Source of the DNA: a virus
DNA length: 48,484 nt
IMG/VR virus record: IMGVR_UViG_3300018080_000252
Span: 1 to 48,484 of that record
Reading direction: 5' to 3' (one strand)
Part shown: positions 10,525-25,545 of the stretch, one piece after another
Position numbering within the stretch: the first letter of the stretch is position 1
Layout: each line of letters begins with the position of its first letter
Made by a program: the position numbers and the translations under genes
The notes under the pieces: model-generated
The model's input: the letters and a program-made list of their open reading frames with translations, nothing else
Databases searched by the model: none
What the model was told of the DNA's origin: nothing

Positions 10525-10817
10525 CGCCTTGGGATCTCTTCGACCGGCTCCTCCTCGCCGTGCCGATCGCGGCGGTGGTGGCCGTTGTGGCGACCACGCT
10601 GGGCTCTCTTCGGGACCGGGCCGCCGGTGGTGAGTCCCCGCTGCCAGACTGGCCCAAACCGACACCCATCACGACGCCGACGCCATTCCCCGACGAAGAG
10701 GCCCGCCAGGCGTGGCACGATGGCTACGGCGTGGGGTACGAGGACGGGTACGACGACGGGATGCACGAGCCCGGAACCACCGAGGAGCCTGTCTACCCCT
10801 ACGACGACTGGCCCTGA
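10428..10817 (+). CDS. Membrane-anchored Gly/Tyr/Asp-rich protein (start uncertain)
   Basis: The coding-like part begins near the repressor stop at 10524. The in-frame ATG at 10428 would overlap the repressor by 97 bases and lacks a ribosome site, so the true start may be a weak codon nearer 10524. The protein has one membrane helix (LLLAVPIAAVVAVVATTLG), a Pro/Thr-rich linker and a tail repeating GY and DG (DGYGVGYEDGYDDG). The tail should lie outside the cytoplasmic membrane if the N-terminus is inside. It ends on a TGATG shared with the integrase. A superinfection-exclusion or lysogenic-conversion role is conceivable; there is no direct evidence. Confidence 0.55.
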   Translation: MAQWPLARHEGRRQYKGQGAGDGDPHRQRRSLTPWDLFDRLLLAVPIAAVVAVVATTLGSLRDRAAGGESPLPDWPKPTPITTPTPFPDEEARQAWHDGYGVGYEDGYDDGMHEPGTTEEPVYPYDDWP

Positions 10818-11950
10818 TGCCCCGCAACATCGCCCGCGCCGCCGACGACACCCTCCTCCTCCGATTCACCGTCAGGATCCGCGACCAGGACGGCGCGCTC
10901 ATCGCCGAGAAGCAGGTCAACCGGAAGGCCAAGAGCCAGACCTCGGAGCACGCCGCCGAGATCGAGGCCGCGGCCCTGCGCGCCGAGATCGAGAAGAAGC
11001 TCCGCAAGGAGCTGCGCGAGCGCCGGCCCGGAGGCGTCCCGACGTGGGGTGAGGCCGTGGAGCTCTACCGGGGATCGTGCCTCGAGCGCGGCACTCGGCT
11101 CGACAAGGAGGAGTACCGTCTCGACATCTTGAAGAAGGAGTTCGGGGCCAGCGCCCGGCTGGAGAGCATCACCCGGGCCATGCTCCTCGAGTGGCGCTCC
11201 GACTTCCGGCGCCGGCAGGCGGTGAAGCGTGGAGGTCGGAAGCGCCCGCTGTCGGCCCGGTCGGTGAACGCCTATCTCACCAACATCATCGCCATCATGA
11301 ACCACGCCGTCGATGCCGGCCTGATCCCCGGGCACGACCTCCACCGCCGCCTCAAGCTCGAGGAAGAGGGCCGCGAGATCCGCGCCCTGAGCCGCCTCCA
11401 GGTGGAGAAGCTGCTCGAGGGGGCCGGCGCCTGGGAGGCGGCATCGAAGCGCAACCGGGTGCCGATCCGGGGCATCATCGCCGTCCACTACTACACCGCG
11501 GCGCGCACCGGCAACGTGCTCTCCCTGCGGCGGGACCAGGTCGATCTCAAGCGCAAGCTCATCACCTGGCCCGCCGATGAGGTCAAGAACCGCAGGCGCA
11601 TCGTGGCCCCGATCCCACCGAAGCTCGAGGAGATCCTGGAAAACTTCGCTCCTTCCATGGACCGGACCCGCGGACTATTGTGGGGCCGTCGCTGGGTGGA
11701 CATCCGCAAGGCATGGTCCGGGGCGGTGCAGGCGGCGAACAAGCTCCTGCAGAAAGCCGAGGAGCCCCTCATCCCCACTGATCTCTCGATCTACTGCCTG
11801 CGTCACTCGAGGGCGACGCACCTGGCGCGGGTCGCGACCCCGAAGGCGGTGGCCGATCTCCTGGGGGACGACGTGCGGACGGTCGCCCGGCGGTACTTCG
11901 CGCATGACCTGGAGGCGGTGCGGGAGGCCGTGAAGAAGCTCGACGGCTGA
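10817..11950 (+). CDS. int: Tyrosine recombinase / integrase
   Basis: A 377-residue site-specific recombinase. The ATG at 10817 overlaps the previous TGA; the longer upstream reading is the neighbouring gene in another frame. The N-terminal 70 residues are probably an arm-binding domain, followed by a core-binding domain at about 75-180. Catalytic residues appear in order: Arg in AARTGN near 230, a Lys in the following beta hairpin region (VKNRRR), His-x-x-Arg in CLRHSRATH near 329-332, and Tyr in RRYFAHD near 360. It should integrate the phage at the tRNA-Asp fragment that lies about 120 bases downstream, next to arm-type repeats. Confidence 0.93.
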   Translation: MPRNIARAADDTLLLRFTVRIRDQDGALIAEKQVNRKAKSQTSEHAAEIEAAALRAEIEKKLRKELRERRPGGVPTWGEAVELYRGSCLERGTRLDKEEYRLDILKKEFGASARLESITRAMLLEWRSDFRRRQAVKRGGRKRPLSARSVNAYLTNIIAIMNHAVDAGLIPGHDLHRRLKLEEEGREIRALSRLQVEKLLEGAGAWEAASKRNRVPIRGIIAVHYYTAARTGNVLSLRRDQVDLKRKLITWPADEVKNRRRIVAPIPPKLEEILENFAPSMDRTRGLLWGRRWVDIRKAWSGAVQAANKLLQKAEEPLIPTDLSIYCLRHSRATHLARVATPKAVADLLGDDVRTVARRYFAHDLEAVREAVKKLDG

Positions 11951-15870: not shown

Positions 15871-18800
15871 CTAGAAGGCCGACTTCCCGGACCAGCTTTG
15901 ATACCAGATGAGCGCATCCCTGAGCAGCTCTTGGTCGCTCTTGGAGAGGCCCGCCATGAACGCGCCGCGGTGCTGCTTCGGGATGGTGTAGAGGGGGTGT
16001 TGCGTGCGGAGGCTCTGCTCGAGGCCCTTGGGGCTACCGCCCTCTTTGAAGTATTCGTTGAGCCACTTCGCGGCGCGTTTCTCATCGCCCCACATGAGTG
16101 CCTTCCGGTAGTAGTAGAGGGCATTGGAGCGGGCGCTGCGATGCAGGATCACCGGCGATGTCTTGTTGAGATGCTCCTCGGCCCACTTCGACGCCTCATG
16201 CCGGATGGCCCAATACGACGCCTCGCGGGGGTCCGTGCGGTAGACGAGGAGCGGTTCAACCCACCGTGCGGCTTTCTGCCAGCCCGTCAGGTCGGTGGTG
16301 CGGCGGGGCTTGCCCATCACTACGTTGTAGAGCTTGTCCAGGCCGGCCCAGCCGCCGAACGTGCGGACGACGTGCTCAGTGCGGTCGCGGATCGGGCGGG
16401 GCCTGAGCCCGCGACGTCCCTCGCCGAAGATGGACGGGTAGGTGGAGAAGCCGCCGATCAGCTCGAACGGCGTCTTGATGAAGGGCTGCACCCCGTTGAT
16501 GGTCCGGTCGGCGGCACCCTTCGGGATCTCGGCCACCTTGTCGCGCCAGTCGGCCCGGCCCGTGACGAGATCCTCGACGTCGTTGGGCCAGTCCGAGAGC
16601 CCGACCCACTTGAGCGCATCGAACAGCGCCCCCTCGAACCGGATCGCGTGGATCTCGCCGGTCTCGTCGTTCCTGCCGAGGATGACGTGTAGACCGCGGC
16701 GGGTGCGCCGGATCTCGCGCTCCTCGTCGGGGAAAAGCGTCATGTTCCACAGCCACACCAGCCCGCTCACGATGTGGGCCTGGAGCACGCGGCGCCCTAC
16801 GCGCTTGAGCACCTTGCCGCCGACCTTCTTGGTCGCGACGCCGGCGACGCGCTTGCCGGTGGCCCACGGATCGCCGCCTTCCTCGTACTGGAGATTCTTG
16901 AAGAGCCGGACGTAGCGCGGTGCGTTGATCTCGGCCCAGCTCCAGAACGAGAAGAGGTTCTCGCGGAGCCACATGCCGCCCCGGGAGATGGCGCCGTAGT
17001 CGCCGACGAGGTCGCGAGCGAGCTTCGCGGCGCGGCGCTTGCCCGTCAGCGGCGCGACCTCATCGACCCGGGAGACGCCGGCGCCCTTGTACTTCTCGGA
17101 GCCGAGGACGCGCTCCTTCATGCGCCGGTAGGCGGCGAGCCGGAGGATGTTCTCCCTCCAGACCGTGAACTCGCGGACGTTCTTCCAGTAGCGATCGACC
17201 AGGTCCACGAACTTGTTGGGATCCTCGTTGATGAGCGCCTTGAAGGCCCCACTCTTCGAGATGTCGGGAATGTCGGTCATGGTCAGCCCGGAGTCGATGA
17301 CGCCGAACTCCATCGCCTCGTCGATCTCCTCCTGGACCGGCTTCGGGACGCGCTCGCCCTTGACGTGGTAGCGCCACAGGTCGCCGGCGGCGTCCTTGAA
17401 ATACTTCATGATCTGCGGATCGAAGGCCACGCAGATGTCCGCGTCGCCGCTCATGTTGTTGAGGTTGTACTTCATGGCGCGGGTCGGTCCGAGGAGCACC
17501 GTCTGCTTCCATGTGGAGTGCGCCCAGCGGAACAGGTTGTCCATCGGGTCGTCGATGTACTTGTGGAACTCGTCGAGCGTCTTGGCGAGATCCTCGGGGA
17601 TCACCCACTGCGGGCGCATCCCACCGATGGCGAGCACTGTGTGGACCTGCTCGGGGGTCAGCTCGATCTCGCCGTCGAGGATCCGCTGCATGGCGCGCTC
17701 CTCGATCGTGAGCGCCCGGAAGACGTTCGCGCCCTGCTTCGGCTGCCAGGCAACGTAGCCCTCGGGGATGAGGTTCTCCCACGTCAGGTAGTCGTTGCCG
17801 AGCCGGTCCTTGATGAAGCGGTTCTTCTCGTTGACCGCCTTCAAGAACGCGAGCGCCGGCACCTGCGGCGGCATCGCGTCGGCGTCGGCCTCGGTGAGCG
17901 GAATGCCGAACATCTCCTTGAACTCGGCGTCGGCCACCTCCTTGCCGTGCTCGACGAGCCACTTCAAGTAGCCGAAGAACCGCTCCGGCTCGGGATCCTC
18001 GTAATCCGGCGTGATGAACTTGTCCTCGGCTGCGCCGCGGAGGGCCTTGCCCTCGGCCAGGTAGCCCAGCACGTCGGGATAGGGACCGGCGGGGAGATTG
18101 CCTGCCGCGGCCTGGTCCTCGAGGAACCGCTTCATCTCGCCGATCCGATGCCTGTAGGGAATGAGCGGGTCGAGCTCTCCCAGCTCGGTCGCCCGGGCGT
18201 CGAGGATAGGTCTGACGTCGCTGGCCCCGTTCCTGATCTCCTCCCTGAGCGCGGCGATCTCGTTCCTCAGCTCGTGGATCCGGGCGAGGTTCTCCGGCCC
18301 GCCGACGAGGTTGACGTAGTTGCGGTGACGGGCCTCGGCGTTGAGCCGGCCCTTGATGTTTGCCAGCTCGTCGAGACGGTCGAGCGTGCGCTTCCGGGCG
18401 ATCGCCGCTGCGGCCTGCGACGCCCACTCCAGCTCGGCCTCCTGGTAGGCGGTGTTGAAGTCGGTGCCGCCGACGCGACGCTTCATGAAGCCCTTCGTGT
18501 GGATCCGCACGTCGGTCGAGCCGGTGCCGACCCACTGCCGTTCCCGGGCGTTGAAGTGCTTCATCACCTGGCGGTGGTAGTAGCGCGGGTCCGCGAGCAC
18601 GTCGGCGTCGAGGATTTCCAGCTCGACGAGCTCCTCCGTCAGCCCGCGGACGTAGCGGGCGCGGCGGTCCAGCGCGGCGCGGACGTGGGAATTGGCCGCG
18701 ACGATGCGCTCCAGGCGCTCGAGGTGCTGCGTGATGTCGGTCTCGGGAGCGTTGTCGCCGAAGCGGGGGTGCGTGTACCCGAAGGGCAGCGGCTTGCCCT

Positions 18801-21800
18801 CGCCCTCCGTTGCGGTGTCGTAGAGCCCGGCCTCCACGTCCTTGATGATGTCGGGGAGGACGATGACGCGGGAGAACAGGTCGAGCGCCTGGCCGTCGAG
18901 CCCCTCCGTGATCTCGCGGATGCGGATGTAGGTGATCGGCTTCGCGGCGCGCTCCGCGGCCTCGAGCGTGCGGAGCTCGTCCTGCATGAGCGCTCGCATC
19001 GAGTCCTTCCCGACGTCGATGTGCGGGTAGTGCCGCCGGAAGATGATGGACGCGCTGGCGAGGAGCTTCTTCATCTCGGCGACCTTGCCCTCGCTCTGGA
19101 GGCCTTTCGCCGCCTGGAACCGCTCCTCGATCTTCGGGTCGTCGGCCTTCACCGCCTCCGGGATCTCGAGCTTGCGGAGGGGCTTCCTGGGCTGGCCGAG
19201 TTTGCGGAGGTTGTCGAGCACGGTGATGAAGGGATCCTTCGCCGTCTCGATCAGCTTCATGTCGTCGGCGCTCTCGGTGACGTCGTTGCCGAACACCTCG
19301 TCCGTCTTCTTCTCGAGGTTGACGGTGCCATCCCAGCGGTTGCCCGCGGTGGCCCTCACCCCGGCGATCGCCACCTGCTCATTGCCGCGCCACAGGCCGA
19401 CGAAGTTGGCGTTCTCTGGATTGAAGCGGATCGTGTCAAAGCCGGTCACGTCCTCCAGGAACCGCCACTGATCGAGGGAGAACGTGAACTCGGAGATGAT
19501 GGCGCCGTTCTCCGTCTCGATGATCGGCTCCATCTGATCGGCGTGCAGTGACCACCGCCAGCCGCGCAGATGGGCACGGGTGCCGTCCTTGTTGGCGTGG
19601 TCCTTCCAGAGCTTCTCGAGCTGCGCCTTGGTGGGGATATTGTGTTTGGGGTCGCTGGTCGTGACCTTGATCTCGTTCTTCACATTCGCGGGAGCGTTCT
19701 CGAGGACCGCCTTCTTGGGGATCAGGAAGTGGCCGTTGGTGTACCAATCCCCCTCGACGTCGAGGCCCGCGTCCTTGCCCATCCACGCCGCCTTGGGGCT
19801 GTAGGACAGCGGCGCCGGCGAGAGCTGGCCGTAGCGCTTCCGGGTCTCCGGCCTGCCGGCCTCGCCCGCAGCGCGTCTCATGCCGGGGAACCCCGACGAC
19901 ATCGTGTGTGCGGTCAGCTTGTTCGAGGACGATGCCTCATCGCGCTCGATCGGCTTGTCGGCGAGCGTGTAGAAGAGATCGCGGGCACCCTCAGAGCCCA
20001 TGGTGTAGATGCCGTCGCCGGGGATCTGGAGCCGGAGCGTGGCCGTGGCGTCGTCCTTGATCTTGGGCCAGTTCTCTTTGAGCTGCTCGATGATCCATGC
20101 TTCCTGCTGCTTCGTAAAGCCGAACCTCTTGACGTCCACCTCGTGCTCGACCTGACTGACCGCCGCACGCGCATCCGCGTTGGGGACCACGTCGATCAGG
20201 CCGATGGGCTTCCGAAGGTCGGGGCGCGCCGTGACGCCGATGCGCTTGATGCGCTCGAGGCTTTCCTTCGCGGCCTCCTCGGTGAAGTACGCCTGTGCCT
20301 CGGCGGGGTCGCGGGTCAGCCCGAAGTGCTTGAACTCGGGATTGAGCGCGTTCTCGAGTGAGGCGTGGTCCTCGCCGTGGAACGTGCCGTCCGGCCACTG
20401 GATGAAGTATCGCGCACCCGTCGCATGGATGAGCCCCTGCTTCTTCGGATCGTCGGGGTGGCGGAACTTCGCCAGCTCATGCGCCTCGACCGTGATGATC
20501 TCCGGCGTCCCCGACGACTCCGGCGTCTTGTGGCCGCGGGTGGTGGGGCGCTCGGCGTCGGGCTTCTTGGGCTCGGGCTTGGGCTTTTCGGCGAGAGGCT
20601 CCTCAGCGGCAGGCGCGGGTGCCTCCTCGGCCTTGGGCTTGTCGATGACAACGATCCGCGAGACGACGCCCGTCTTCCGTAGCTCGTGCTCCTTGAATGA
20701 GCCCTCGGGGAGCTTCTCCGACGTGCCGTCTACCTCCTCGAGCCACGAACGGAATGACCTGGACTCGTAGTCCTCTCGGAAGAAGGGGCCTTCGCTCATG
20801 ATGGAGACGACGCGACCCCCAGGCTTCAAGAGCCTGTAGGCGTGCTGGACGTGCTTGATGTCCTGGCCCTTTTCGAAAGGTGGGTTCATGACGATCTTGT
20901 CGTATCCTTCGACGCTGTACTCGAGGAAATCGCGGTGGGTGACGTCATAGCCCTTGTCAATCAGGATCTTCGCCAATTCACTGTTGAATTCGACGATATC
21001 GACATTGCCCTTCTGGCCCTTACCTGCGCCAGCGGCCACCATCGCATCGGCGAGATCCCCTTTCCCTGCGGATGGCTCGAGCACTCGATCGGTGCTCTTG
21101 ATGTCCGCTCTCTCGAGCATCTTCGTGATGACCGAGCGGGGCGTCGGAAAGAACCCGGGGATCTTCCGACCGGCGAGTGCCAGCTCGGCCTTCTTGCCCT
21201 CTGAGACTCCCTTGGCCTCGGAGCGGATATCGAGCAGCTCCTCGAGCGCGGCGCGGAGATCCTCGGTCGATTCGATGCCAAGCCGATGCAGGCGCTTGAT
21301 GTGCGCTACGTCCGATTGGAGCATCGCAGTGTCGCTTTTCAGGAGCTTTGCCGTGTCCTCCATCTCGTCAAGCCATGCCTCGTCGAGTCGCACCCAATCC
21401 TCACCGGCTCTTACAGCATGGTTCTGCCACGACTTCACGAGCTGTTTCGCTCGGACAATCTGGCCTCTCGGCACCTGCTTCTTCTCGAGCATCTCGCTCA
21501 ATTCTCTGGCGATATAGCGGGCGTTGTGCCCGTACATCTTCGGCCATGGGAATGTCGCGTGCTCAAGGTCGGATTCGTTCGGAGCCCGGCTGCGGATCTC
21601 CTCGCGGGCGGCTCTCTCGTCTGCTGGCAGCGATCTCTCGTGCTCGATGTTGGCGTGTCGCAGCTCCTTTTCCAGCGCCTCGACAGCGGCCTTCGTCTTC
21701 ACGTTGGCGAGCTTGGTCTTCTCCCCCGACTCGAGCTTGTCGGCGACGGCCTGCATCGTCTTGGCGAGGGCCTGGTCTGCGTAGGCGCTCTCCATGGCGC

Positions 21801-24800
21801 TCTCGGCTTGCCTCGCATACCTGGCGGTGTGCGTCTTCCGCGGTTGGTCGAGCGCCTCCTGCGCCTTGCTGGCGAGTTTCTTGGCCTGGGAACGAAGAGC
21901 TTTCGCGGCGGCGATGCGCTTCTTGTCCACTCGCGGCGGTGCCGCTGACGGCTTCTCAGGCGGCAGAACTGTGATCCCGGCCTTCCACAGCTCACGAATC
22001 GTGCCGGGTCCAGCGGGGCCGGCGAACTCGATCCGCTCCTCCCTGGTCAGCTCGCGGACATCGCCGCGACGGTGGAAGGTGTACCCTGCCTTCTCGATCT
22101 GCTCGACCACGCCTCCCGAAAGCTCACCCACCGCCGTCTTCCGCGGGGATTCCGCCTCCGTTTCCGGCTTCGTCTCCTTCGGTGCCGCCTTCTCAGCAAC
22201 CGGCGCAGGAACTCCCTCTGTGGTGCCAGAAACCACCTCCAGCTCGTCGTAGGGGATCCAGACCTTGGCACCGCCCTCGCCGTCGATGATGGCGGTCGGC
22301 TTACCTCCGGGCTTGATGGTGTACTTGTAGGGGCCTTGCTGGCCGGTGCCCTTGTGGCGGATGATCGTGCCCTTGGTCAGCTCGGGAGGCTCCTTCGCGG
22401 GGGCCTCTGGCGGGGCAACGTGCGCGACCGCGTCCTCATGCACTTTCCTGGCGTTGTCATAGACGTTGAACCTCTTGAGGGCGGTGACGTTCCCGGAGTC
22501 AAGGTCGATGACCCGGACGAAGCCCTGCTTGCCGCGGGCTGCCTTGTACAGCTCGTAGCGGACGCCGTCGATCGTCTGGACGTCGGCGACGATCGCATCC
22601 GACCCCATGACTCGGGCAGCATCACCGACATTCAGCTCTTCCGGCGCTTCTTTAACGCCTTCCGCACGGCCTTCTCGAGCTTGTGGTGCCTCCCCACGGG
22701 GTTGCTCGGGTGCTTCGCGTTGTAGATCCTCGCGGCCTTCGCCTGCGCCGCGTCGTAGCTCATCCCCTCCTCGCGGACGAACCTGTCCCTCATCGCCTCG
22801 TAGACCTTCGGCATCGGGGGCCTCCTTCTTCTCTGCCGCCAGCATGCGCTCGAGAAGCTCTGCGGCAGCCTTATCGGCAGCCTCATCAGTCCGCACCTTC
22901 CCCTCGGAGCCTGTGGGGTAAACCCTGGTGTGGAGATGGTGCCCTTGCGCGAGTAGACGCTCCATTTCTTCCCGAACACGAGCTGCGATATCCGGGCGAC
23001 CCTTGGCAATCCAGAAACGATGACTCTTCTCGAAGTTCTCGACCGTGCCGAATCCCTTGAGATACAGCCGGGCTTGCTCCTGCGTTAGGACTCGCGCCGC
23101 CTCTTCCGGGGACAAGGCGAATAGCTTTCTGTACCACTCCTGATCTGCTTCGTAATGCCTATTTGAGGCTTCTAGGTCGAAGTCCGGGTCATTCGGGTCG
23201 GTAGTATGAGGAGGCGACTCGGGGCGCGGCGGGAATGTGCTGACCGCCTCTACTTCCGCCCGAGGAACTGGAGCACCTTCGCCTTCAGCGACGGGCTCGG
23301 CTGCGGCTGCCGCGGCAGGACCTCCAGCTTGACCGGGGGGTTCCCCAGCTCGCGAAGCCTCTCGAACCAAGTCGATAGGCTCTCGCCCTTTCGGCGCTCG
23401 TAGTCCTTCTTGCTCCCGCTGCCGCTTGTGCTCGTGCCCGGCCTGGCTGGCCCTGTCATAGTCTCCTCCAACTCCATGCGAGATCGCCGGCGTGGCCGTC
23501 AGAATGGTGCCATCCTTCAAGGTAACTCTGAGCTGGCGCTCTTGCAATCTCTTGTTGAGCCTGTCTGCGAACTCCTGCGCGTCCTGTTCCGAAGGGAAAC
23601 GGCCTGCGAACTCGTCACCGCCGTACCGCGTAACGGTTCGGACGCGATCGCCCATCTCTTCTCGGATTGCCGCGGACTCCTCCGCGATGACACCGAGGAG
23701 CTTGTCGCCCTCAGCCTCAGAGACGTGGTCGTTCCACCATCCGAGACTGTCAACGTCGTACCACAGGGTGATGTCGTCGGGAGCCTCATGTTCGGCTTCG
23801 ACGTAGGCTCGGCGATTGCCGATCTCTATACCGTGCTGATCGCGGATTCGATCGTCCACGAGCAGCTCGCGCTTCGCTTCCTCCTCCGACATCTCGGCTA
23901 CGCGCCGCCGCCGAACGAGATCGACCCGACGTTCCTCGGGGATTGCCTCCGGCTGCGCCCCCTGCGGCTCCTGTGGCTTGGCAAACTCAGCCGCGGGCTC
24001 TGCGGGTGCTGGGGGACGCTCGGGGGCTTCGGACGATCCTGGGGCTTTCTGAGCCGTTTCCGGCAAGGCGGCGTTGAGCAGCTCCCGCGCCTCCTCGCGG
24101 CCCTGGACATTGAGCAGGTTGCGGACCTCGTTGATGGTGGGGCGCCGTCCAAGGTCGTCGGCCATGCGACGGATGCGCTCGCCCTGCGTCGGCTCACCCT
24201 CGGTCTCCATCGCCTCGAGCAACTCGGCGCGGCGCTCGGCCTGCGGCCTGCGCTGCTCCTCGGCCTGGCGGGTGATCTCGCGTTCACGCTCCAGCTTCGC
24301 GGCTTGGGCCTGCTCGGTCTCGGCCCGGACCTGCTCCGCTTCGGTGCGAAGTGCCTGCGCGGTGGCCGTGTCCTTGGGAAGCATCCTGCCGGCGATCTCG
24401 GCTTCGACCTCGAGATCCGGCGGCGGCTCACGCCTCTTCCACATGCTGATGATGCGGTCGGCGGTCTTCCAGTCGTCGCCCTCGATCGCCCGCTGGAGCT
24501 CCTTGACGTACTCCTCCCGCATGATGCGCTCGGCGTTGTTGGGGCCGGCGCGGTCGGGGTGCATGTCGATGAGCGCCTCGCGGTAGACCTTTGCCTTGTC
24601 CGCTGCCGCCTTCGGGTTGAAACCCTGGGAACGCAGCGTCCTCGTCAGGAAGCCGAACAGCTTCCCGGCTGCATGGAGAGCGAGGATGCCGGCAGCGGAC
24701 TCCGCGAAGCCCTTGGCGGCTTCCGCGGGCTCGCCCTTCTCGATGCCGGCGCCTGCGCCCATGGCGCCGAACTGCGTCGCCGCCGCACCCGTGCGGGCGA

Positions 24801-25545
24801 TCTGAGCGGCCTCCTTCGCGACGGCCTCCGCGGCCTTGCGCTCCATGCCGCGGGCCATGGCCTTCGTGAGCACGCGCTCGAAGACCTGCTTGGCGAGGGG
24901 CAGCGACACACCGCCCGCGGTCGCGACCTCCGCGGCCACGTAGGGAGCCGCCTCGACCCCGAACCCGGCGACCTTCCCGGCGATGTCCCCGACGCCTGCT
25001 GCACCTCCACGCACCTCGCCACCACCGAGACGATGGCCCAGCCCCATGCGTTGGAGCAGCTCGTGGACGCCCTCGCGGCCCTTCGCCAGCGCGTCACTGA
25101 CGGGCGTGGGCTGATCGCCCGGGAGGAGCTGCTCGGAGAAGAATTCGCCGAGGAGGGGTGCGGCAAGCGCGAAGTCCACGCCGGAGTAGAGGAGATGCGT
25201 CACGCCCTGTGCGAGGGAACCGGCTGCTTTCTGACCCGCAGACGGGAGCGGCCCCATGGACGGGCGATCGCCGATCTCCTCGTCGGTGAGGGGCTTGGTT
25301 CGGGATGGAGGCTCGGCCTGGATATCTGGCACCGTTTCGGTGGACGCTCCGGTAGTCATCGGCCCCATACGCTCCTGCGACGGCGGGACGCGCATCGCGG
25401 GCGTGCCTGCCGGCTGCGCCTCGACCATGCCGCCGCCGAGATTGACCTTGAGCCAGTGCTCGTCGGAGACACGCCGCACCACCTCGTCGGGGGTGCCGTC
25501 CGGGAACCGGATCACGTCGCCGTTGGGGAAGCGGACCTCAGCCAT
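15871..25545 (-). CDS. Giant polyvalent / ejection protein with DnaJ-like, GGDEF and adenine methyltransferase domains
   Basis: A 3224-residue protein, one fifth of the genome, with its start on a shared TGATG. Visible regions in order: an N-terminal PNGDVIRFPDGTPDEVVRRV segment; an Ala/Gly-rich hydrophobic region at about 190-290; a DnaJ-like segment with HPDR near 328; a Glu/Arg coiled coil at about 380-480; a GGDEF domain at about 570-700 with GNRRAY, YDVDS, GDKLL and RYGGDEF near 640; an Arg/Glu-rich linker; an adenine-specific methyltransferase at about 1455-1640 with PSAGKGD and NPPF; several unknown domains; and a C-terminal helical part at about 2250-3200. Such polyvalent proteins are thought to enter the cell with phage DNA and counter host defences, as P1 DarB does. 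The methyltransferase stretch is visibly less GC-rich than the ends. Confidence 0.85.
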   Translation of the reverse strand: MAEVRFPNGDVIRFPDGTPDEVVRRVSDEHWLKVNLGGGMVEAQPAGTPAMRVPPSQERMGPMTTGASTETVPDIQAEPPSRTKPLTDEEIGDRPSMGPLPSAGQKAAGSLAQGVTHLLYSGVDFALAAPLLGEFFSEQLLPGDQPTPVSDALAKGREGVHELLQRMGLGHRLGGGEVRGGAAGVGDIAGKVAGFGVEAAPYVAAEVATAGGVSLPLAKQVFERVLTKAMARGMERKAAEAVAKEAAQIARTGAAATQFGAMGAGAGIEKGEPAEAAKGFAESAAGILALHAAGKLFGFLTRTLRSQGFNPKAAADKAKVYREALIDMHPDRAGPNNAERIMREEYVKELQRAIEGDDWKTADRIISMWKRREPPPDLEVEAEIAGRMLPKDTATAQALRTEAEQVRAETEQAQAAKLEREREITRQAEEQRRPQAERRAELLEAMETEGEPTQGERIRRMADDLGRRPTINEVRNLLNVQGREEARELLNAALPETAQKAPGSSEAPERPPAPAEPAAEFAKPQEPQGAQPEAIPEERRVDLVRRRRVAEMSEEEAKRELLVDDRIRDQHGIEIGNRRAYVEAEHEAPDDITLWYDVDSLGWWNDHVSEAEGDKLLGVIAEESAAIREEMGDRVRTVTRYGGDEFAGRFPSEQDAQEFADRLNKRLQERQLRVTLKDGTILTATPAISHGVGGDYDRASQAGHEHKRQREQEGLRAPKGREPIDLVREASRAGEPPGQAGGPAAAAAAEPVAEGEGAPVPRAEVEAVSTFPPRPESPPHTTDPNDPDFDLEASNRHYEADQEWYRKLFALSPEEAARVLTQEQARLYLKGFGTVENFEKSHRFWIAKGRPDIAARVREEMERLLAQGHHLHTRVYPTGSEGKVRTDEAADKAAAELLERMLAAEKKEAPDAEGLRGDEGQVRPRGGDELRRGAGEGREDLQREAPEQPRGEAPQAREGRAEGVKEAPEELNVGDAARVMGSDAIVADVQTIDGVRYELYKAARGKQGFVRVIDLDSGNVTALKRFNVYDNARKVHEDAVAHVAPPEAPAKEPPELTKGTIIRHKGTGQQGPYKYTIKPGGKPTAIIDGEGGAKVWIPYDELEVVSGTTEGVPAPVAEKAAPKETKPETEAESPRKTAVGELSGGVVEQIEKAGYTFHRRGDVRELTREERIEFAGPAGPGTIRELWKAGITVLPPEKPSAAPPRVDKKRIAAAKALRSQAKKLASKAQEALDQPRKTHTARYARQAESAMESAYADQALAKTMQAVADKLESGEKTKLANVKTKAAVEALEKELRHANIEHERSLPADERAAREEIRSRAPNESDLEHATFPWPKMYGHNARYIARELSEMLEKKQVPRGQIVRAKQLVKSWQNHAVRAGEDWVRLDEAWLDEMEDTAKLLKSDTAMLQSDVAHIKRLHRLGIESTEDLRAALEELLDIRSEAKGVSEGKKAELALAGRKIPGFFPTPRSVITKMLERADIKSTDRVLEPSAGKGDLADAMVAAGAGKGQKGNVDIVEFNSELAKILIDKGYDVTHRDFLEYSVEGYDKIVMNPPFEKGQDIKHVQHAYRLLKPGGRVVSIMSEGPFFREDYESRSFRSWLEEVDGTSEKLPEGSFKEHELRKTGVVSRIVVIDKPKAEEAPAPAAEEPLAEKPKPEPKKPDAERPTTRGHKTPESSGTPEIITVEAHELAKFRHPDDPKKQGLIHATGARYFIQWPDGTFHGEDHASLENALNPEFKHFGLTRDPAEAQAYFTEEAAKESLERIKRIGVTARPDLRKPIGLIDVVPNADARAAVSQVEHEVDVKRFGFTKQQEAWIIEQLKENWPKIKDDATATLRLQIPGDGIYTMGSEGARDLFYTLADKPIERDEASSSNKLTAHTMSSGFPGMRRAAGEAGRPETRKRYGQLSPAPLSYSPKAAWMGKDAGLDVEGDWYTNGHFLIPKKAVLENAPANVKNEIKVTTSDPKHNIPTKAQLEKLWKDHANKDGTRAHLRGWRWSLHADQMEPIIETENGAIISEFTFSLDQWRFLEDVTGFDTIRFNPENANFVGLWRGNEQVAIAGVRATAGNRWDGTVNLEKKTDEVFGNDVTESADDMKLIETAKDPFITVLDNLRKLGQPRKPLRKLEIPEAVKADDPKIEERFQAAKGLQSEGKVAEMKKLLASASIIFRRHYPHIDVGKDSMRALMQDELRTLEAAERAAKPITYIRIREITEGLDGQALDLFSRVIVLPDIIKDVEAGLYDTATEGEGKPLPFGYTHPRFGDNAPETDITQHLERLERIVAANSHVRAALDRRARYVRGLTEELVELEILDADVLADPRYYHRQVMKHFNARERQWVGTGSTDVRIHTKGFMKRRVGGTDFNTAYQEAELEWASQAAAAIARKRTLDRLDELANIKGRLNAEARHRNYVNLVGGPENLARIHELRNEIAALREEIRNGASDVRPILDARATELGELDPLIPYRHRIGEMKRFLEDQAAAGNLPAGPYPDVLGYLAEGKALRGAAEDKFITPDYEDPEPERFFGYLKWLVEHGKEVADAEFKEMFGIPLTEADADAMPPQVPALAFLKAVNEKNRFIKDRLGNDYLTWENLIPEGYVAWQPKQGANVFRALTIEERAMQRILDGEIELTPEQVHTVLAIGGMRPQWVIPEDLAKTLDEFHKYIDDPMDNLFRWAHSTWKQTVLLGPTRAMKYNLNNMSGDADICVAFDPQIMKYFKDAAGDLWRYHVKGERVPKPVQEEIDEAMEFGVIDSGLTMTDIPDISKSGAFKALINEDPNKFVDLVDRYWKNVREFTVWRENILRLAAYRRMKERVLGSEKYKGAGVSRVDEVAPLTGKRRAAKLARDLVGDYGAISRGGMWLRENLFSFWSWAEINAPRYVRLFKNLQYEEGGDPWATGKRVAGVATKKVGGKVLKRVGRRVLQAHIVSGLVWLWNMTLFPDEEREIRRTRRGLHVILGRNDETGEIHAIRFEGALFDALKWVGLSDWPNDVEDLVTGRADWRDKVAEIPKGAADRTINGVQPFIKTPFELIGGFSTYPSIFGEGRRGLRPRPIRDRTEHVVRTFGGWAGLDKLYNVVMGKPRRTTDLTGWQKAARWVEPLLVYRTDPREASYWAIRHEASKWAEEHLNKTSPVILHRSARSNALYYYRKALMWGDEKRAAKWLNEYFKEGGSPKGLEQSLRTQHPLYTIPKQHRGAFMAGLSKSDQELLRDALIWYQSWSGKSAF

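Follow-up and report, generated by a model that had tools for sequence, protein, structure and literature searches.

The DNA analysed here, which we call the window, spans positions 1 to 48,484 (48,484 nt) of IMG/VR virus record IMGVR_UViG_3300018080_000252. Its longest open reading frame encodes a protein of 3224 aa, here termed the polyvalent protein, and lies between the tail and capsid genes (26-44 kb) and the endolysin gene, all of them on the minus strand. The genes that define this setting are the following.

2.4-7.1 kb: primase/helicase, exonuclease and Sak4-like protein
10817-11950 (10.8-12.0 kb), plus strand, opposite to the polyvalent gene: integrase, with a match to the phage integrase family
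13.5-14.1 kb, minus strand: endolysin
15871-25545, minus strand: polyvalent protein gene, 3224 aa, ATG start, N-terminus at 25545, coherent codon use
29.2-35.0 kb, minus strand: virion structural and tail proteins
36.3-37.5 kb, minus strand: major head protein
39.1-41.1 kb, minus strand: head-tail adaptor
42.4-44.2 kb, minus strand: small and large terminase subunits

Judged by its sequence, the phage resembles temperate tailed phages, and its giant gene appears to belong to the late module; it is probably temperate because of the integrase family match. A Pfam search of ten other proteins of the window gave no match, PilZ and EAL included. The giant gene is downstream of the terminase, adaptor, capsid and tail genes and upstream of the endolysin gene on the same strand, and hence in the vicinity of virion genes. 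Iyer et al. 2017 (PMC5512222) found phage polyvalent proteins near virion genes and read this position as an indication that they are packaged; by that rule, the late-module position of the window gene agrees with a virion-delivered polyvalent protein. Gene position thus suggests that the protein is probably a virion component that enters the host together with the DNA.

At least two unrelated activity domains in one polypeptide mark a polyvalent protein in the sense of Iyer et al. (2017), and the window protein combines a GGDEF domain with a DNA methyltransferase domain.

20626-21153, minus strand: adenine-type DNA methyltransferase domain, residues about 1465-1640, with NPPF at 1554-1557

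The methyltransferase region matches phrog_15406 ('DNA methyltransferase') at E=4.8e-107, and the Pfam methyltransferase and N6_Mtase matches on the open reading frame score under their cut-offs. The protein is matched by 237 phage records, and among the matches listed all fall over the methyltransferase region, while the C-terminal 1324 aa (15874-19845, minus strand) have no cultured-phage match in tblastn at 1e-3; close homology to a cultured polyvalent protein is thereby ruled out. InPase, SWI2/SNF2 helicase, zincin and ART domains were not detected in the window protein.

GGDEF domains are the kind of domain that makes the bacterial signal c-di-GMP. The original prediction had placed the landmarks of a diguanylate cyclase in order along the polyvalent protein, and they are indeed found there as GNRRAY from residue 576, YDVDS at 596, N605, GD at 613-614 and RYGGDEF at 640-646. 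The region as modelled is given below.

23374-23898, minus strand: GGDEF domain, residues 550-724, supported by PF00990 slice score, AlphaFold2 and Foldseek

With the whole open reading frame as query, Pfam PF00990 matches at E=1.7e-4 (21.8 bits, under the 23.8 cut-off); with a 250-aa slice it matches at E=1.1e-5 and 25.7 bits, over that cut-off, and the match extends beyond the RYGGDEF word, as the prediction had required of a true domain. NCBIfam TIGR00254 reaches 24.3 bits, under its cut-off of 37.4, and phmmer against PDB sequences matches diguanylate cyclases with a best E of about 0.001. A single-sequence AlphaFold2 model has a pLDDT of 60, and its best PDB matches in Foldseek are nonetheless GGDEF domains (E 4e-5). 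When an 18-sequence alignment was supplied, the model reached pLDDT 96.2 and pTM 0.90, and all 50 PDB matches listed by Foldseek were GGDEF proteins (best E 1.9e-8, TM about 0.5-0.7), so that the expected fold is also predicted. A search for the ordered core expression DxD..ND..GD..R/H/K-x-[GSA]G[DE]EF, with correct spacing, gave a single match in the protein and none in 20,000 residue shuffles. The shuffles and the predicted fold rule out a chance match to the GGDEF word, and profile and model together confirm residues about 550-724 of the 3224-aa frame as a genuine GGDEF domain. The best structural match in BFVD is A0A516M277, a viral protein fragment modelled over 1143 aa (TM 0.83, rmsd 1.8), which probably represents a giant phage protein already in the catalogue and bearing this GGDEF domain too.

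Used as sole query in IMG/VR scans, neither the window domain nor the whole protein recovered relatives, and a tblastn search of cultured phages with the domain had no match at 1e-5. Relaxed tblastn against cultured phages recovered the stand-alone GGDEF proteins of YuA-like phages with E near 1e-3, and a subfamily search seeded by aligning the window domain with these proteins yielded 17 and then 79 IMG/VR loci. At 55 distinct loci the GGDEF domain is part of an open frame that spans 1000 aa or more (median 2661 aa), a count that takes in one locus from a bacterial assembly and a few loci that the tree places outside the subfamily (L019, L021, L023). The window domain resembles this phage GGDEF subfamily, which was recovered here in about 50 other giant proteins of uncultured phages. 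The relatives carry other polyvalent-protein domains, namely InPase, LPD1, RadC and a sub-threshold match to ART-PolyVal; InPase is co-resident with GGDEF in 15 of the 55 distinct giant proteins, on its N- or C-terminal side (L012-L014, L028, L032, L038, L044, L046, L058 and others). Two relatives (L045, L053) adjoin tail or head-closure genes, and the neighbouring genes examined at L056 gave no match. A plasmid search returned mainly ordinary bacterial cyclases.

In the tree, a 37-row phage clade that includes the window is split from the bacterial GGDEF domains with support 95/85. At 2.69, the branch leading to the window is exceeded in length by only two others, and grouping the window with the bacterial set is not rejected by an AU test (p=0.39); because of this long branch and the AU result, subfamily membership of the window domain rests on the tree split together with the shared C-terminal KxxRExxGxRAxxG. 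Four giant phage proteins (L019, L020, L021, L022) have a GGDEF domain outside the subfamily in the tree, with DLNALTAINN in place of DxDSLKWxND, and possibly acquired it separately.

The roles of individual residues (metal, guanine and phosphate contacts) are presumed to be those assigned in PleD. The residues by which diguanylate cyclase activity is judged were taken from PMC6629876, and their conservation was counted in 57 relatives, roughly 20-60% identical among themselves or to the window.

23803-23817, minus strand: NRRAY motif, residues 577-581 (N in 53 and A in 56 of 57 relatives)
23749-23757, minus strand: DVD, residues 597-599, metal-binding Asp, equivalent to PleD Asp327 (D597 in 57 of 57)
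23704-23733, minus strand: ND...GD, residues 605-614, equivalents of guanine-binding Asn335 and Asp344 (N605 and G613 in 57 of 57, D614 in 52 of 57)
23608-23628, minus strand: RYGGDEF, residues 640-646, signature hairpin (D644 and E645 in 57 of 57)
23386-23427, minus strand: KRQREQEGLRAPKG, residues 707-720, Lys442 equivalent and subfamily C-terminal signature KxxRExxGxRAxRG (K707 and G714 in 57 of 57, R716 in about 97%)

All 57 relatives share the residues that correspond to PleD Asp327, Asn335, the G of GD, Asp370, Glu371 and Lys442, and the window has each of them as well. The window copy keeps the metal ligands Asp327 and Asp/Glu370 and the GG[D/E]EF motif (D597, D644, GGDEF 642-646), as well as the guanine-binding Asn335 and Asp344 (N605, D614); an Asp in place of residue 344 is in keeping with specificity for guanine. 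The spacing from D to N is 8 in every row, and that from N to GD is 9 in every row but one. Calling the domain complete-looking was nevertheless slightly too strong: a GGDEF domain is present, but the equivalent of Lys332, a phosphate contact, is Gly602 in the window (the relatives have Lys in 54 of 57 and Gly in 2 of 57), the GH of NDxxGH has become Ser609-Glu610, the usual D(P/x)LTG (DPLTG) ahead of NRRA was not found in the window domain, and the RxxD inhibitory I-site, which is present in 1 of 58 rows, is likewise absent from it. K707 aligns with Lys442, and for Arg446, expected at +4, an Arg stands at +3 (R710).

Among columns that are at least 98% conserved, 13 of 13 are kept in the window, compared with 17 of 99 among columns conserved at less than 50%. 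With the conserved columns intact and the variable ones drifted, this is the pattern that selection on the GTP and metal site would leave. It bears on whether the domain was once active and persists in the window as an inactive remnant in decay, as its long branch and the loss of DPLTG, Lys332 and GH might imply; decay would erode conserved and variable columns alike, and we regard such a remnant as very improbable.

The same losses of the Lys332 equivalent and of GH would also suit a domain that binds GTP or c-di-GMP without synthesis, serving as a sensor of the host nucleotide state that controls the neighbouring domains. However, the catalytic metal Asp and the DE pair, invariant in the 57 relatives, would be dispensable if the domain did no more than bind, and receptor GGDEF domains often retain the RxxD site that the window domain lacks. 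We consider a sensor rather unlikely, even though degenerate forms make up about 24% of GGDEF domains and some serve as receptors (PMC3974145).

Ahead of GDEF, the relatives have H in 44 of 57 and S in 48 of 57 (H-x-S), while the window has the canonical R-Y-G-G. In this H-x-S and in the KxxRE C-terminal signature the subfamily is unlike bacterial cyclases, which could point to a nucleotidyl transferase with another product, be it a different cyclic or linear dinucleotide or GMP transferred to a host target, and GGDEF-type palms do have other activities elsewhere. Such a product seems improbable, since the domain retains the Asn and Asp that read guanine, and the solved structures closest to it belong to ordinary diguanylate cyclases. 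The [G/S/A]G[D/E]EF forms are compatible with activity, because SGDEF ECA3270 and AGDEF VCA0965 are active enzymes (PMC3974145).

To account for these features, we propose, at about an even chance, that the giant protein is a virion-delivered polyvalent protein holding both the adenine methyltransferase and a GTP-using cyclase domain that makes c-di-GMP without I-site feedback. The observations on which this proposal builds are the domain, its fold, the conserved metal and GTP residues, the absence of RxxD and the late-gene location; conservation of the metal- and GTP-binding residues throughout the subfamily makes cyclase activity plausible. The protein would travel in the virion and enter the cell together with the DNA; its GGDEF domain would bind GTP along with two metal ions, and a dimer of it could condense two GTP to c-di-GMP and pyrophosphate. 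The newly infected cell might then experience a pulse of c-di-GMP that is not limited by I-site feedback, with a sessile, low-motility state or interference with nucleotide-based defence as possible effects on the host. InPase, where co-resident, could pull the reaction by removing pyrophosphate, and a similar suggestion has been made for InPase in general by Iyer et al. 2017 (PMC5512222). Its occurrence in 15 of 55 proteins speaks for a cyclase; on the other side, InPase is found in diverse polyvalent proteins generally (PMC5512222) and is undetected in the window protein. Against a cyclase stand the Gly at the Lys332 equivalent, the change of GH to SE and the Arg446 position that is not clearly matched, and the window copy may be drifting, given its long branch. 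The papers searched report no measured activity for the phage GGDEF subfamily. More tentatively, and short of an even chance, many uncultured phages may deliver a feedback-free diguanylate cyclase within a virion protein, thereby setting the c-di-GMP of the host in the first minutes of infection, ahead of phage gene expression.

The original prediction knew of no well-described case of a GGDEF domain in an ejected phage protein, and this does not hold, for Iyer et al. 2017 (PMC5512222) report GGDEF in phage polyvalent proteins, list it among the domains of these proteins, and suggest that it might interfere with nucleotide signalling in the host or act against rival elements. The Acetonema longum prophage protein WP_004096050.1 described there is, like the window protein, a giant multidomain protein with GGDEF and an adenine methyltransferase; it also has the SWI2/SNF2, zincin and ART domains undetected in the window protein. 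For proteins of this type, delivery at invasion was predicted and related functional hypotheses were offered, and delivery is likewise what we infer for the window protein. Such GGDEF-polyvalent proteins were termed not very widespread (PMC5512222), whereas one scan here returned dozens. The virion antirestriction proteins of the P1 DarB type are also giant phage proteins with a methyltransferase, and a DarB-like PHROG matches one relative (L014) over its GGDEF-InPase region; however, no SWI2/SNF2 helicase was found in the window protein, and DarB is an established virion component (PMC5512222), whereas for the window protein a place in the virion is predicted. With the bacterial diguanylate cyclases PleD, WspR, DosC and SiaD the window domain has the fold and most active-site residues in common, but it is without the RxxD site and the Lys332 equivalent and is embedded in a giant phage protein.

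Hence, GGDEF in phage polyvalent proteins is already in print (PMC5512222), as are annotated stand-alone GGDEF genes in YuA-like phages; new, as far as our searches show, are the extent of the subfamily, the conservation of its active site, its lack of an I-site and the link between giant proteins and the YuA type. If the domain is active, phages would use a protein that enters alongside the genome to manipulate the main lifestyle signal of bacteria, which would explain why dozens of giant phage proteins that otherwise differ greatly have retained a GGDEF subfamily with an intact GTP site, and the 2017 prediction of Iyer et al. would become testable with small cultured relatives such as YuA gp44.

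These cultured relatives (YuA gp44, MP1412 and Bordetella phage CN1; Yuavirus/Vojvodinavirus) are 35-36% identical to the window domain, have DxDSLxW-ND, GDEF and KxxRExxGxRAxxG in common with it, and match it structurally in BFVD with a TM of 0.68. Each is a single-domain protein of about 155 aa, encoded beside an antirestriction gene in phages of Pseudomonas and Bordetella. The region has no annotated virion genes, and the stand-alone protein is therefore probably expressed rather than delivered. Lysogens of LK3 form more biofilm, an observation made for the lysogen and not for the GGDEF gene by itself (PMC8471281). Stand-alone members of the subfamily like YuA gp44 also occur in three viral contigs (L081, L086, L089), as open frames of 161-221 aa.
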